Origin: Alphaproteobacteria bacterium
Lineage (GTDB): Bacteria > Pseudomonadota > Alphaproteobacteria > JAJTHO01 > CANGYM01
NCBI GenBank assembly: GCA_947458145.1
Contig: CANGYM010000004.1
Span: 1 to 37,101, forward strand
DNA: 37,101 nucleotides
Reading direction: 5' to 3'
Shown here: positions 3,027 through 10,100 of the stretch, in pieces
How the letters are laid out: every line of letters starts with the position of its first letter
Numbering within the stretch: position 1 is the stretch's first letter
Made by a program: the position numbers and the translations under genes
The notes under the pieces: model-generated
What the model was told of the DNA's origin: nothing
The model's input: only the letters and a program-made list of their open reading frames with translations
Databases searched by the model: none

Positions 3027-3971
3027 ATGACCACCATCGCCTTTTATCATAACGCCCGCATTCCCTATACGCCCGATGATTTGGGGCGGGCGACCATCAA
3101 GGGCATGGAATCCTCCGTCCTGCAATGGGCGGCGGCCTTGACACAGGCCGGCCATACCGTGCGCCTGCACCTGCCCCAGAGTGCCGCCCCCCTGCCCTAT
3201 CCTGATGTGACGCTGTATCCGTTAACCGACACCACCCCCGCCGATGTGGCCGTGGCCCTGAATGAACCCGATTTGCTATGGCGCGTCCCCGCAAAGCGCA
3301 AATTTTTGTGGCTGCACAATGCTTTGCCACTGGAAAAGGCCCTGCGCAAAGGCCGCCTGTGGCCCCTGATCCGCATGAAAATGCCCGTGATTGTCAGCAG
3401 TCGCTGGCACGCCCGCACGCTGTCCCCCCTGCTGGGCTGGCACGGCGTGCATGTCATGCCGCTGGGGATTGCCGATGCCTTTACGCACCATCCCCGCACC
3501 GCAGCCCCCGCGCCCCACGTGGGGTATATCACCCACCCGTACCGCGGGTTGGATCATTTTTTTACCCTGTGGACCCAGCGGATTTTGCCCCACTGTCCAG
3601 CGGCGCAGCTGCACCTGTACGGCCCTAAAACCCTGAATCACCCCAGCGTGGTGCATCATGACGCGGTGGGGTGGGATCAACTGCCCGATATTTTGGGGCG
3701 CCTGCGCTGTGTGGTGTTTCCGTGGGACAAAGCGGAAACCTTTTGTCTGGCCGCCGGCGAAGCGCTGGCCACCGGCACCCCCGTTATCAGCTATGATGTG
3801 GGGGCCATCCCCGAACACGCGGGCGTCACCGCCGTTGCCACGCCGCAGGCCTTTGCCGACACCACCTTGGCCTATTTGACGGATGATGCCCTGTGGATGA
3901 ACACCCACACCGCCCTCTCCCCCCTACCCCGCCCCCGCTGGACCCATCATAATTTTTTTCATGGTGTGTGA
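3027..3971 (+). CDS. Glycosyltransferase, GT4-like (GT-B fold)
   Basis: This 314-residue protein is probably a cytoplasmic or peripheral-membrane sugar transferase for surface glycans. The N-terminal half has a Rossmann-like start (TTIAFYHNARIPY) and a G-rich donor-independent segment. The middle has VIVSSRWHARTL and VMPLGIADAF, the usual linker sequence in GT4 enzymes. The C-terminal half has CVVFPWDKAETFCLAAGEALATGTPVI, where E-x7-E binds the nucleotide sugar, and GAIPEHAG after it. The length is somewhat short for GT4 (usually 350-400). Its stop codon is part of the promoter element of the next orphan gene. The acceptor is unknown. Confidence 0.82.
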   Translation: MTTIAFYHNARIPYTPDDLGRATIKGMESSVLQWAAALTQAGHTVRLHLPQSAAPLPYPDVTLYPLTDTTPADVAVALNEPDLLWRVPAKRKFLWLHNALPLEKALRKGRLWPLIRMKMPVIVSSRWHARTLSPLLGWHGVHVMPLGIADAFTHHPRTAAPAPHVGYITHPYRGLDHFFTLWTQRILPHCPAAQLHLYGPKTLNHPSVVHHDAVGWDQLPDILGRLRCVVFPWDKAETFCLAAGEALATGTPVISYDVGAIPEHAGVTAVATPQAFADTTLAYLTDDALWMNTHTALSPLPRPRWTHHNFFHGV

Positions 3972-4007
3972 AAAATATCACATTTTTAAAGGAAAAACGG
4001 GTATAGT
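3966..4007 (+). promoter_or_regulatory. Family A promoter element, copy 1 (TGTGA-N6-TCACA plus -10)
   Basis: A perfect inverted repeat TGTGA-AAAATA-TCACA (3967-3982), the general Crp-type operator plan, is followed by a TATAGT -10 hexamer (4002-4007). The dyad centre lies about 40 bp before the likely start of transcription, as in class II Crp-dependent promoters; no separate -35 box is seen. Over 40 bp (3966-4005) it matches 4747-4786 at 38 positions. The TGA inside the left arm is also the stop codon of the glycosyltransferase. Confidence 0.65.
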
Positions 4008-4040
4008 TTGGGGGAATGTTTAAGATTTATTGGGGGGGGT

Positions 4041-4733
4041 ATGGGTTTAGTTAGAATAAAATTGCCACCAGCAGAACCTTTTGATGAAATCAAAAGAGAA
4101 TTAGCAACTCTTTTTCCAGAAAAGGATTTTGAAAATCCTGAATCGATCAAAACTCTTCTAAACAGTGAAACTGATCTTGAAACACTTACTGCTGATCGTT
4201 TAGGGGTCTTGGCGATATTGATTCTTGATCAAATACAAAACTACCAAATCAATGACATTGGAACCCTTACCAGCCACGTCCTAACCCGCGTTTGGAAACT
4301 TTTAGAAGAAACTGCCTCTGATGAAAACTTAGATATAAAACTATTGTCGATTATCTACTGTGATGCGGATGATTCTGAGATCAGAAAAACACTAACGCCT
4401 ATTTTTGCAGACAAAGACTTTATTGCACTTAGGGAAACACTGGCTTCTCTGAAATATGCGTTAAACGAAAAAGAGGGTGGAGACCCTCTACTTTTAGCAA
4501 TAATGACCTCGGACCCTGATGCAAATGAATTCCAAAAAATTAGAAAATTTTTACAACAAGATATAGATAAAAATCTACCTGAATTACAACCTATAATTTC
4601 AAGCCTTAAAACAGACCCTAGTTATTTATTAGATTTATTAGAATTATTATATCTGCCAGATGATGAAAGCTTGGCACAAATATCGATGCCCCATATCTTT
4701 GATATCACTAAAAAAAACCACCCCACACCCTAA
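4041..4733 (+). CDS. Orphan acidic helical protein, family A cassette 1
   Basis: I do not recognise this 230-residue protein. It is acidic, leucine-rich and predicted almost wholly helical, without signal peptide or membrane segment. The likely start is the ATG at 4041, eight bases after a purine-rich stretch. A TTG at 4008 in the same frame would add 11 residues. The start is preceded by a run of eight G (4032-4039), which serves as ribosome-binding site and is prone to slippage. Codons are AT-rich, unlike those of the neighbours. The DFIAL segment (about residue 133) resembles DFIAV in the next orphan, and both carry an IGTL(T/S)S stretch, so the two may be very distant relatives. They share a promoter element. 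Confidence 0.7.
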   Translation: MGLVRIKLPPAEPFDEIKRELATLFPEKDFENPESIKTLLNSETDLETLTADRLGVLAILILDQIQNYQINDIGTLTSHVLTRVWKLLEETASDENLDIKLLSIIYCDADDSEIRKTLTPIFADKDFIALRETLASLKYALNEKEGGDPLLLAIMTSDPDANEFQKIRKFLQQDIDKNLPELQPIISSLKTDPSYLLDLLELLYLPDDESLAQISMPHIFDITKKNHPTP

Positions 4734-4746
4734 TTTTTTTACCCCC

Positions 4747-4788
4747 GTGTGAAAAATATCACATTTTTAAAGAAAAAAGGGGTATATT
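4747..4788 (+). promoter_or_regulatory. Family A promoter element, copy 2 (TGTGA-N6-TCACA plus -10)
   Basis: This is the second copy of the element at 3966. TGTGA-AAAATA-TCACA is at 4748-4763 and the -10 hexamer TATATT at 4783-4788, with exactly the same 35-bp offset from the start of the dyad to the -10. Sequence identity is lost just beyond the -10, which indicates that the promoter and not the gene is what has been kept. Confidence 0.65.
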
Positions 4789-4830
4789 ATACAATGATAA
4801 AATCAACCGTAATGGGCAACGGGTGGGGAT

Positions 4831-5517
4831 ATGGGTGGTGAAACACAGTTGGAAACATCTTACTGGCAGCTCACCGAGAAGATGAACAAAACACTCAATC
4901 GGTTTTTAAAACAACATCAGGATACTGACGACATAGATGATTGTACTTCGTCTATTTTGCATGCCTTTATTGCTAAAATATTATGTTCCAAAACTTTACT
5001 AAAAACCTACCCCCGCCAACCCATTGCACCGGATGAAATAGGCACATTAAGCTCAGAAGAACAAGCTGACCTACATGATACAGCAACACACATCACAACC
5101 CGCATAAAGAAACTTATCGTAGGCCAAGGCATCTCAGCGGAAGAATTTTCATCTCTTGTTTATGAAGGAAAACATCTAAATCGACAATTATTACAATATA
5201 ATGAAGCAGATTTCATTGCGGTTGTAAATCGAGAATTTGAACCTGTTTCTAAACACTTTCAACGTAAAGAAGAGGATTTAAAAGACAAACTTGAAAACCT
5301 TTTGGGGACCGATGAATTTCTTCCCCTAACAACCATTCTAACCCATTTAACGCCCTATACACCAAATAATGATACCGCACATGTTATGCTGGATTTTTTG
5401 GTGATGGCTCTATCATCCTTGGATTTCCAACAACCTCCACTTGAAACAGAAACAACACCAACACCAATCCAAAAAACGGTATCGTTACCATCTTTAGACC
5501 AACAACGAACCGCCTAA
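4831..5517 (+). CDS. Orphan helical protein, family A cassette 2
   Basis: This 228-residue protein is not recognised. It is predicted helical, polar and soluble, with a heptad-like stretch around residues 140-170 (EFEPVSKHFQRKEEDLKDKL) and a Thr/Pro-rich tail (ETETTPTPIQKTVSLPS) of the kind seen in disordered C-termini. The ATG at 4831 follows GGGTGGGGAT, a G-rich ribosome-binding site like that of the preceding orphan. Codons are AT-rich compared with folD downstream. A CCCCCGTGTG sequence occurs just after this gene and also just after the preceding orphan (4742-4751), so each is bounded by similar short sequences. Function unknown. Confidence 0.7.
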   Translation: MGGETQLETSYWQLTEKMNKTLNRFLKQHQDTDDIDDCTSSILHAFIAKILCSKTLLKTYPRQPIAPDEIGTLSSEEQADLHDTATHITTRIKKLIVGQGISAEEFSSLVYEGKHLNRQLLQYNEADFIAVVNREFEPVSKHFQRKEEDLKDKLENLLGTDEFLPLTTILTHLTPYTPNNDTAHVMLDFLVMALSSLDFQQPPLETETTPTPIQKTVSLPSLDQQRTA

Positions 5518-7340: not shown

Positions 7341-7442
7341 CCCCGCATCATTTTTTTTTCCCAAAACACAAAAAAATGTGACAAATGGCACGGCACGGTA
7401 CGGTACGGTACGGTACGGTACGGTACGGTACGGCATAATGGG
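7341..7442 (+). promoter_or_regulatory. Family B promoter module, copy 1, with nine pentanucleotide units
   Basis: The module begins with terminator-like CCCCGCATCA and nine T, then CCCAAAACACAAAAAAATG, TGTGA (7377-7381), two GGCAC units (7387-7396), seven GGTAC units (7397-7431), GGCAT, and a -10-like CATAAT (7434-7439) followed by GGG. Apart from one T and six repeat units it matches 10029-10100. The spacing from TGTGA to the -10 is 57 bp here and 27 bp in the other copy. Confidence 0.75.
7387..7436. repeat. Pentanucleotide tandem repeat GG(C/T)AC within promoter
   Basis: Nine consecutive 5-bp units (two GGCAC, seven GGTAC) plus a terminal GGCAT lie between the TGTGA motif and the -10 hexamer. 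The homologous promoter at 10075-10094 has only three GGCAC units plus GGCAT. The seven identical units are the sort of tract that changes length by polymerase slippage. Confidence 0.9.
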
Positions 7443-7453
7443 GGCTGTTTCAT

Positions 7454-7473
7454 AAAGTCCCAAGGACTTTTTT
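7454..7473 (+). promoter_or_regulatory. Leader hairpin covering the ribosome-binding site of the orphan gene at 7477
   Basis: AAAGTCC (7454-7460) pairs with GGACTTT (7464-7470) over a CAA loop, followed by a run of T. It looks like a terminator or attenuator. The only Shine-Dalgarno-like sequence before the ATG at 7477, AAGGA (7462-7466), is within its loop and 3' arm, so translation could be masked when the hairpin forms. Confidence 0.5.
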
Positions 7474-7476
7474 CAC

Positions 7477-7926: not shown

Positions 7927-8658
7927 ATGTCCATTCCCCCCCATGTTCTGAAAACCGTTCCCTTGTTTGCGGATTTAACGCCGCAAGAGGTCACCCTGTT
8001 GGAACAACACTGTCGCTTGCGAACCTATGAAGAGGGCCAAATCCTTTTTACCCAAGGGGATGCCATCACGTCCCTTTATGTCCTCTGTCAAGGGACCCTG
8101 CAGATTTTTCGCGATACCCAAACGGGGCACGAGGTCACCACCGATATTCTGATTGCGGGGGATCTTTTGGGGGCGGATGATATGCTCAATGCCGTGGAAA
8201 CCCACACATCCAGCGCCAAAGCCGTGGATAAAACCATTCTGGTTGACATTCCGGCGCTGTGGGTCAGACAAAATTTCAAAAGTTTCGACCGTTTGGGGGA
8301 ACACCTGTTGGAATACGTGTCCAAACGCCTGCATCAGGCCCAAACGGAACGGGAACAAAGCATCACCATGACCGCCCCCCAATTGATTGCCTGTTATGTA
8401 CAGCGGCTGTGTTTTTTGTATGGCTTTGATCCAAAGGGGTTTGATTTGCCCTATAAAAAAACCCTCATCGCCTCTCGTCTGGGCATGGCGCTGGAAACCT
8501 TTTCCAGATCGCTGGAAAAACTTTCGGATCATGGCATCATCATTTCAGGCAACCATGTTTCCATTCCGGATATTGAAAAGGCAACAACATTTGTATGTTC
8601 CGAATGTTCCATCAACGATGTTTGTGAAAATCATCCTGAAACGAAAAGTCAATTTTGA
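7927..8658 (+). CDS. Crp/Fnr-family transcription regulator with C-terminal cysteine cluster
   Basis: This 243-residue protein has an N-terminal cyclic-nucleotide-binding-like beta roll (about 10-120), a dimer helix (about 120-145) and a winged helix (about 150-220). The recognition helix contains Glu190-Thr-Phe-Ser193-Arg194, the E-x2-S-R set by which Fnr and FixK read TTGA half sites. The cAMP-contact Arg of Crp is not evident (GDLLGADDML then HTSSAKA), and the N-terminal Fnr cysteines are absent. Cys224, Cys227 and Cys233 form C-x2-C-x5-C near the C-terminus. A TTGAC-N4-GTCAA box overlaps its stop codon and faces the hsp20 gene, the likely target. It resembles FixK/Dnr-type regulators; the signal is unknown. 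Confidence 0.88.
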   Translation: MSIPPHVLKTVPLFADLTPQEVTLLEQHCRLRTYEEGQILFTQGDAITSLYVLCQGTLQIFRDTQTGHEVTTDILIAGDLLGADDMLNAVETHTSSAKAVDKTILVDIPALWVRQNFKSFDRLGEHLLEYVSKRLHQAQTEREQSITMTAPQLIACYVQRLCFLYGFDPKGFDLPYKKTLIASRLGMALETFSRSLEKLSDHGIIISGNHVSIPDIEKATTFVCSECSINDVCENHPETKSQF

Positions 8659-10047: not shown

Positions 10048-10100
10048 CCCAAAACACAAAAAAATGTGACAAATGGCACGGCACGGCACGGCATAATGGG
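10029..10100 (+). promoter_or_regulatory. Family B promoter module, copy 2, with three pentanucleotide units
   Basis: This is the same module as at 7341, with eight T, CCCAAAACACAAAAAAATG, TGTGA (10065-10069), three GGCAC units (10075-10089), GGCAT, and CATAAT (10092-10097) followed by GGG. GTGACA (10066-10071) could act as a weak -35 box, 20 bp from the -10. In copy 1 the same two boxes are 50 bp apart. Confidence 0.75.

Follow-up and report, generated by a model that had tools for sequence, protein, structure and literature searches.

Possibly exchangeable orphan genes behind a Crp-type promoter: two probable members of a genus-specific regulon in an alphaproteobacterium

Introduction

The origin of new genes, and the way in which existing control comes to include them, is still an open question. 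In the window analysed here (the whole stretch of DNA, 37,101 nt), two AT-rich orphan genes, A1 and A2, follow a glycosyltransferase-like gene in tandem, and almost the same short promoter precedes each of them. The lineage is a deep one: even the best named FolD relatives reach just 56% identity, and its neighbours mark it as alphaproteobacterial. The locus asks what reads this promoter, and how two seemingly unlike genes came to stand behind it. The reading favoured here, which we hold to be probable, is that A1 and A2 belong, as lineage-specific genes, to a Crp regulon of the genus: exchangeable genes under class II-like promoters, and possibly type IV substrates.

The orphan genes A1 and A2

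A1 (4041..4733, forward strand, 230 aa) and A2 (4831..5517, forward strand, 228 aa) are predicted to encode soluble, acidic proteins. Both look like genuine coding sequence: GC1/GC2/GC3 is 0.48/0.31/0.27 in A1 and 0.51/0.35/0.30 in A2, with GC1 > GC2 > GC3 in both, and every other frame holds 16–28 stops. Their GC3 (0.27 and 0.30) contrasts with 0.66–0.76 in neighbouring metabolic genes. The same holds more widely: A1, A2 and the large orphans without repeat arrays range from 0.27 to 0.37, secretion and metabolic genes from 0.56 to 0.76.

Homologues of A1 and A2 were found neither in 59 genomes (own genus, order and class) nor in viral contigs, plasmids or the PDB, and no family match was accepted in Pfam, NCBIfam, PHROGs or PADLOC; for A1, the genome_contigs collection and phages likewise yielded none. 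A sequence-only reading had called the proteins unrecognised and “at best remotely alike”. Both descriptions hold: no collection searched contains a relative, and the alignment of A1 with A2 reaches only z = 1.3, with 34 of 300 shuffles equally good, so that the similarity is not significant. A DUF4368 match on A2 (E = 0.0013) lies below the curated cut-off and is judged to be chance. A poly-G start motif, GGGGGGGTATGG, common to A1 and an orphan on contig 14, was dropped as a mark of the regulon because its other genomic copies have no preceding Crp-type site and look like coding sequence.

Single-sequence AlphaFold models of both proteins are all-helical, and a helical make-up is probable; at a pLDDT of 45–46 the models are too poor to count on a fold. 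Sequence and domain profile searches found no secretion signal or effector-like domain in either protein. A clearly basic C-terminus is also absent: A1 ends in ...TKKNHPTP and A2 in ...LDQQRTA.

A shared promoter element

Direct reading of the two upstream regions confirms the 38 matches in 40 positions, the perfect dyad and the identically placed -10 that had been proposed (3966–4005, GTGTGAAAAATATCACATTTTTAAAGGAAAAACGGGTATA; 4747–4786, GTGTGAAAAATATCACATTTTTAAAGAAAAAAGGGGTATA). The dyad, TGTGAAAAATATCACA, is a perfect TGTGA-N6-TCACA in both copies (3967..3982 and 4748..4763, forward strand). A -10 like hexamer begins 19 nt past it in each case, TATAGT before A1 (4002–4007) and TATATT before A2 (4783–4788). 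A2 has a better overlapping hexamer 2 nt further on, TATTAT at 4785–4790, 21 nt past the dyad, so that its -10 region spans 4783..4790. No -35 is visible in either copy, and neither promoter contains a tandem repeat array.

The likeness extends further than supposed. A repeat search of the window gives a pair of 61 nt at 84% identity (3945..4005 and 4726..4786, forward strand), the second overlapping the end of A1; the two are direct head-to-tail repeats 781 bp apart. The earlier statement that similarity ends at the -10 is right for the main block only: the two copies already begin to agree about 20 nt 5' of the dyad (TAATTTTTTT), and around the start codons they show a weak likeness once more (GGGG-ATGGGT). 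The first 26 nt of the 40-nt element are the same in both copies, and a scan of the 1.41-Mb genome, allowing up to three mismatches, finds this core only before A1 and A2; the chance expectation of such 26-mer pairs in the window is about 1.5e-7.

The first copy is tied to the gene before it. The glycosyltransferase-like gene (3027..3971, forward strand) ends in a TGA (3969–3971) that is at the same time the TGA of TGTGA in the first dyad, and the same overlap occurs in the sister species (L080). Because it overlaps this gene end and persists in the sister, the first site is considered ancestral. The second element seems to have been copied locally from the first, as its T-run belongs, in copy 1, to the glycosyltransferase reading frame.

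This ancestry also bears on the idea that A1 and A2 are prophage or mobile-element cargo carrying its own promoter. AT-rich orphans amid a GC-rich neighbourhood would suit such an origin. Nevertheless, the first site sits at the glycosyltransferase gene end in both species, neither gene matches a PHROG, phage, viral contig or plasmid, and the window contains no tRNA; of all the explanations weighed, this one receives the least credence.

From the predicted start sites, the dyad centre would lie at about -39.5 to -41.5, with the -10 at 19 nt for A1 and at 19 or 21 nt for A2. Class II activation is suggested by this geometry. CRP bound near -40.5 has effects in E. coli that range from activation to repression (PMC6301791).

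The Crp-type regulon and its candidate regulators

The site is not confined to the window. The 1.41-Mb genome contains 13 exact copies of TGTGA-N6-TCACA and 0 of the reversed pattern; when one mismatch is allowed, the counts are 45 and 11. In the single sister species compared, the dyad count is 20 against 1 for the control, whereas two other families of the order give 3 against 2 and 1 against 2. Sites exceed the control in both species and not in the other two families, which supports a real Crp-type regulon that is confined to this genus among the genomes compared. All exact sites lie before or between genes except one on contig 28, inside an mgtE-like ORF, which is treated as chance rather than as a regulon member.

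Promoter layout varies within the regulon. Averaged over 22 sites, -10 likeness peaks modestly 21–22 nt past the dyad, so the A1 spacing of 19 nt is 2–3 bp short. Two orphan promoters, on contig 14 (TTGATT-N17-TAGAGT) and contig 70 (TTGACA-N17-TAGGGT), lie 30–31 nt past the site, and their layout, which includes a -35, resembles class I. The idea that every member is class II was dropped on account of these two promoters.

Four proteins of the genome match Crp/Fnr-type helix-turn-helix profiles, only two of them above the cut-off. In general, helices of the RETVGR type recognise TGTGA, and those of the ETxSR type TTGAT. Contig 11 encodes a Crp-like protein with the helix TTRETVARAFRKL (CRP-type RETVAR) and a cAMP-pocket-like stretch, FGELAALDKQPRSA; its closest structures are Crp, the best match being the Crp-family structure 4ev0. 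An adenylate-cyclase domain is encoded in both species, although in the genome of the window a contig end interrupts it. The contig-11 protein fits as the putative reader of the TGTGA-N6-TCACA sites. Together with the over-representation of the dyad, the presence of a matching Crp protein supports the proposal that the element is a Crp-type promoter.

The other candidate lies close at hand. A Crp/Fnr-family regulator with an FNR-like recognition helix, LETFSR, is encoded at 7927..8658 (forward strand), 2.4 kb downstream of A2 and adjoining the second group of promoters, family B, and this position would suit a regulator of A1 and A2 other than Crp. Its helix is, however, expected from general knowledge to prefer TTGAT over TGTGA, and its closest structures are cyclic-nucleotide-binding and FNR-type regulators. 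Moreover, the segment 7340–9490, which carries B1, this regulator and an Hsp20-like gene, is absent between serB and the next gene in the sister, where Crp-type sites are equally numerous. The protein at 7927 is probably not the regulator of these sites, and we regard control of A1 and A2 by it as very unlikely.

Kept promoters and changed genes in the sister species

The stretches around the sites were compared with those of one sister species. On contig 14, the promoter and the gene that precedes the site align at 91% with sister contig 31 (flanks and promoter together, 88–91%). Homology stops 68 nt past the site and resumes, at 89%, right after the orphan stop codon. The genes in between, 94 + 981 aa on contig 14 and 638 aa in the sister, align at z = 2.0, which is not significant. 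As read from this alignment, the locus shows genes replaced outright behind a kept promoter.

On contig 70 and sister contig 25, only 104 nt are in common (91%), a stretch that opens with the first Crp-site base and reaches as far as the start codon. The orphan proteins behind it, 655 and 644 aa, are about 26% identical; since the alignment reaches z = 9.7, they are relatives that either diverged fast or moved with the promoter. Fast divergence, not replacement, explains the pattern at this locus.

At the locus of A1 and A2 itself, the sister keeps the site after the glycosyltransferase gene as TGTGAGGGATGTCACATTTTT, followed only by a 31-aa ORF; A1 and A2 are absent. The sister folD lies on another contig than the glycosyltransferase locus. 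Exchange or divergence behind fixed promoters is seen at the two other loci, and we infer it for A1 and A2. The sequence-only reading had guessed at a common way of adding genes to a regulon, and this guess gains support, since elsewhere in the genus promoters stay while the gene behind them changes.

Tandem duplication of promoter and gene together would account for A1 and A2 differently: the proteins diverged, purifying selection kept the promoter, and no gene was exchanged. The direct, head-to-tail arrangement fits this well, as do the near-equal lengths of two acidic, AT-rich and predicted all-helical products, and the contig-70/contig-25 pair provides a precedent for a fast-diverging orphan with a kept promoter. 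That same pair also speaks against it: its z of 9.7 contrasts with 1.3 for A1 and A2, although the longer pair is easier to detect, and the contig-14/contig-31 locus offers outright replacement. Duplication is a serious possibility, to which we give a good deal less than even weight. Exchange or divergence of the genes behind kept promoters is the reading retained below.

Two further observations concern the genome structure around such loci. Gene order breaks repeatedly at promoter-orphan cassettes (L025, L062, L066 and L077 compared with the window, L033, L035, L036 and L040). In both species, several contigs share a dispersed repeat of about 85–100 bp, 85–90% identical (L037:3308-3405 and several loci of the sister).

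Genes behind other sites

About a dozen further genomic sites stand before a protein-export machine and other orphans. A site on contig 10 lies 36 nt upstream of an operon that encodes several VirB2-like pilins together with VirB3 and a VirB4 ATPase (TIGR00929, E = 1e-103), and this virB2-virB3-virB4 type IV secretion operon has the same upstream site in the sister species. On contig 86, a site kept in the sister precedes a 1193-aa multi-spanning membrane protein that carries a DnaJ domain close to the C-terminus (L038:941-4522). By size and make-up this protein reads as VirB6-like, and a VirB6-like protein with a chaperone domain would be an unusual combination. A VirD4-type coupling protein is encoded in both species. 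Another site precedes a 371-aa protein that is 78–79% conserved, and large AT-rich orphans stand behind the sites on contigs 14 and 70.

The regulatory element of A1 and A2 also stands before type IV secretion genes, namely virB2/virB3/virB4 and the gene of the VirB6-like protein, where both species have it; the restricted distribution and atypical G+C of A1 and A2 are as expected of type IV effectors. Weakly suggested as their likeliest role is one directed at a host or at neighbours, perhaps as type IV substrates, because the same site precedes the virB operon, the VirB6-like gene and other large AT-rich orphans. Co-regulation of A1 and A2 with secretion is plausible. The virB site follows a TTGACA-17-TAATCT stretch and possibly sits just downstream of such a promoter, a layout that repression would fit as well as activation, and for this reason expression of A1/A2 may not coincide with that of virB.

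The link to secretion might also be a coincidence, with A1 and A2 as metabolic or stress genes of an ordinary Crp regulon under catabolite control. Crp regulons are broad, and some of the sites do adjoin ordinary genes: that of an ABC substrate-binding protein and, divergently, gyrB and a Dps-like gene. Yet no orphan matches any metabolic family, their low GC3 and species-restricted distribution are out of keeping with such a role, and the sites at secretion genes are kept in both species. This view is rather unlikely in our judgement; the reading of A1 and A2 as exchangeable, lineage-specific members is preferred.

Family B and its repeat arrays

Downstream in the window, family B comprises two promoters of another design. 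Promoter 1 (7377..7439, forward strand) consists of a TGTGA-type site, a pentanucleotide array and CATAAT, with 41 nt from site end to -10; promoter 2 (10065..10097, forward strand) has the same design with a shorter array and 11 nt. The A1 and A2 promoters had been taken for a second, separate case beside family B. This separation is probably wrong: family A (the A1 and A2 promoters) and family B look like parts of one regulon.

Like family B, over a dozen cassettes across the two genomes combine a TGTGA-type site, a run of units (TCACA, GCACG/GTACG or 6-bp units) and CATAAT or a variant. Array cassettes were also seen at L033:3458, L035 and L036 (both minus strand), L040:6986, L041:3796, L062:2001, L067:2001, L073, L074, L077 and L080:2597 and 3696. 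Similar promoters of the sister (L065, L078) carry the 6-bp units GCCCCA and GCCACA in place of 5-bp units. The cassettes often have a small hairpin-like inverted repeat just 5' of the start codon, e.g. AGTCC-GCAA-GGACT (window 7440–7476; L041:3850-3895; L067:2040-2085; L077:2040-2090), which may hold the ribosome-binding site. Behind an array promoter of the sister (L080:2934-3045) lies a perfect run of the 9-mer GATTCTTCA.

Where the array consists of pentanucleotides, site and -10 lie 6, 11, 16 (one 17), 21, 26, 31, 36, 41 or 51 nt apart, a step of 5 bp or half a helical turn. In four sister cassettes this distance is 21 nt, which puts 32 bp between the centres of site and -10, as is optimal for class II; in B1, with 41 nt, the centres are 52 bp apart, near the class I optimum of -61.5. 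Two near-identical sister copies differ in this distance, 51 and 26 nt. Activation by CRP depends on spacing with a periodicity of about 10.5 bp (PMC6301791), and array length as a half-turn expression switch is a natural, candidate hypothesis for family B because of this periodicity.

Proposed mechanism and known systems

In the mechanism proposed, each of A1 and A2 would be served by its own copy of a compact promoter. A Crp-type activator (cAMP-Crp) bound at TGTGA-N6-TCACA, near -40, would replace the -35 and, judging from the layout, recruit RNA polymerase in a class II-like manner to the -10 about 19–21 bp away. The first site, where the glycosyltransferase gene ends, would be ancestral and the second its local copy. 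The promoters would persist while the genes behind them were replaced or diverged beyond recognition, a step that is inferential at A1 and A2. The earlier reading is right in outline, and the setting proves richer than the sequence alone could show: a Crp regulon in which orphan genes that would be exchangeable stand alongside genes for secretion.

The closest parallel for the promoters is provided by the cAMP-CRP class II promoters of E. coli (galP1; dyad near -41.5). The site consensus and the lack of a -35 are alike, the spacing from dyad to -10 agrees within 0–3 bp, and this genome encodes a Crp-like protein with a RETVAR helix. Unlike those promoters, the A1 and A2 copies precede species-specific orphans in direct tandem, activation is here predicted from sequence, and some partners are class I-like or have a repeat array between site and -10.

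For the orphans, the parallel lies in Legionella and Coxiella. Shared regulatory elements and atypical G+C have been used in Legionella to find type IV effectors (PMC2701608), and in the PmrA/CpxR-controlled Icm/Dot effectors of both genera one element likewise stands before secretion genes and many orphans of atypical G+C (PMC2701608 and references therein). The site here is Crp-type, not PmrA/CpxR, and the machinery VirB2/3/4-type, not Icm/Dot; in contrast to those effectors, A1 and A2 are candidates for secretion on the strength of the shared element.

Repeat-length switches at nadA of Neisseria (PMC2791445) and sabA of Helicobacter (PMC4081817) resemble the family B arrays, which likewise vary the distance from regulator site to core promoter. 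The family B unit differs in being 5 bp, a half turn, so that each unit should shift the activator to the opposite face of the DNA; the A1 and A2 promoters are array-free. A more speculative extension, which we put forward tentatively and with some doubt, is that fixed Crp promoters act as sockets for swapped orphans beside type IV secretion: half-turn arrays would toggle one class of socket, and A1 and A2 would occupy the array-free, always-responsive class.

Biological meaning

Comparison of the two sister species shows promoters that persist in front of changing genes, and the step at which genes are wired into existing control thereby becomes visible. The half-turn arrays of family B, if the hypothesis is true, would be a simple and directly testable expression switch. 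If the orphans are secreted, the element would provide a ready list of candidate effectors in this lineage.
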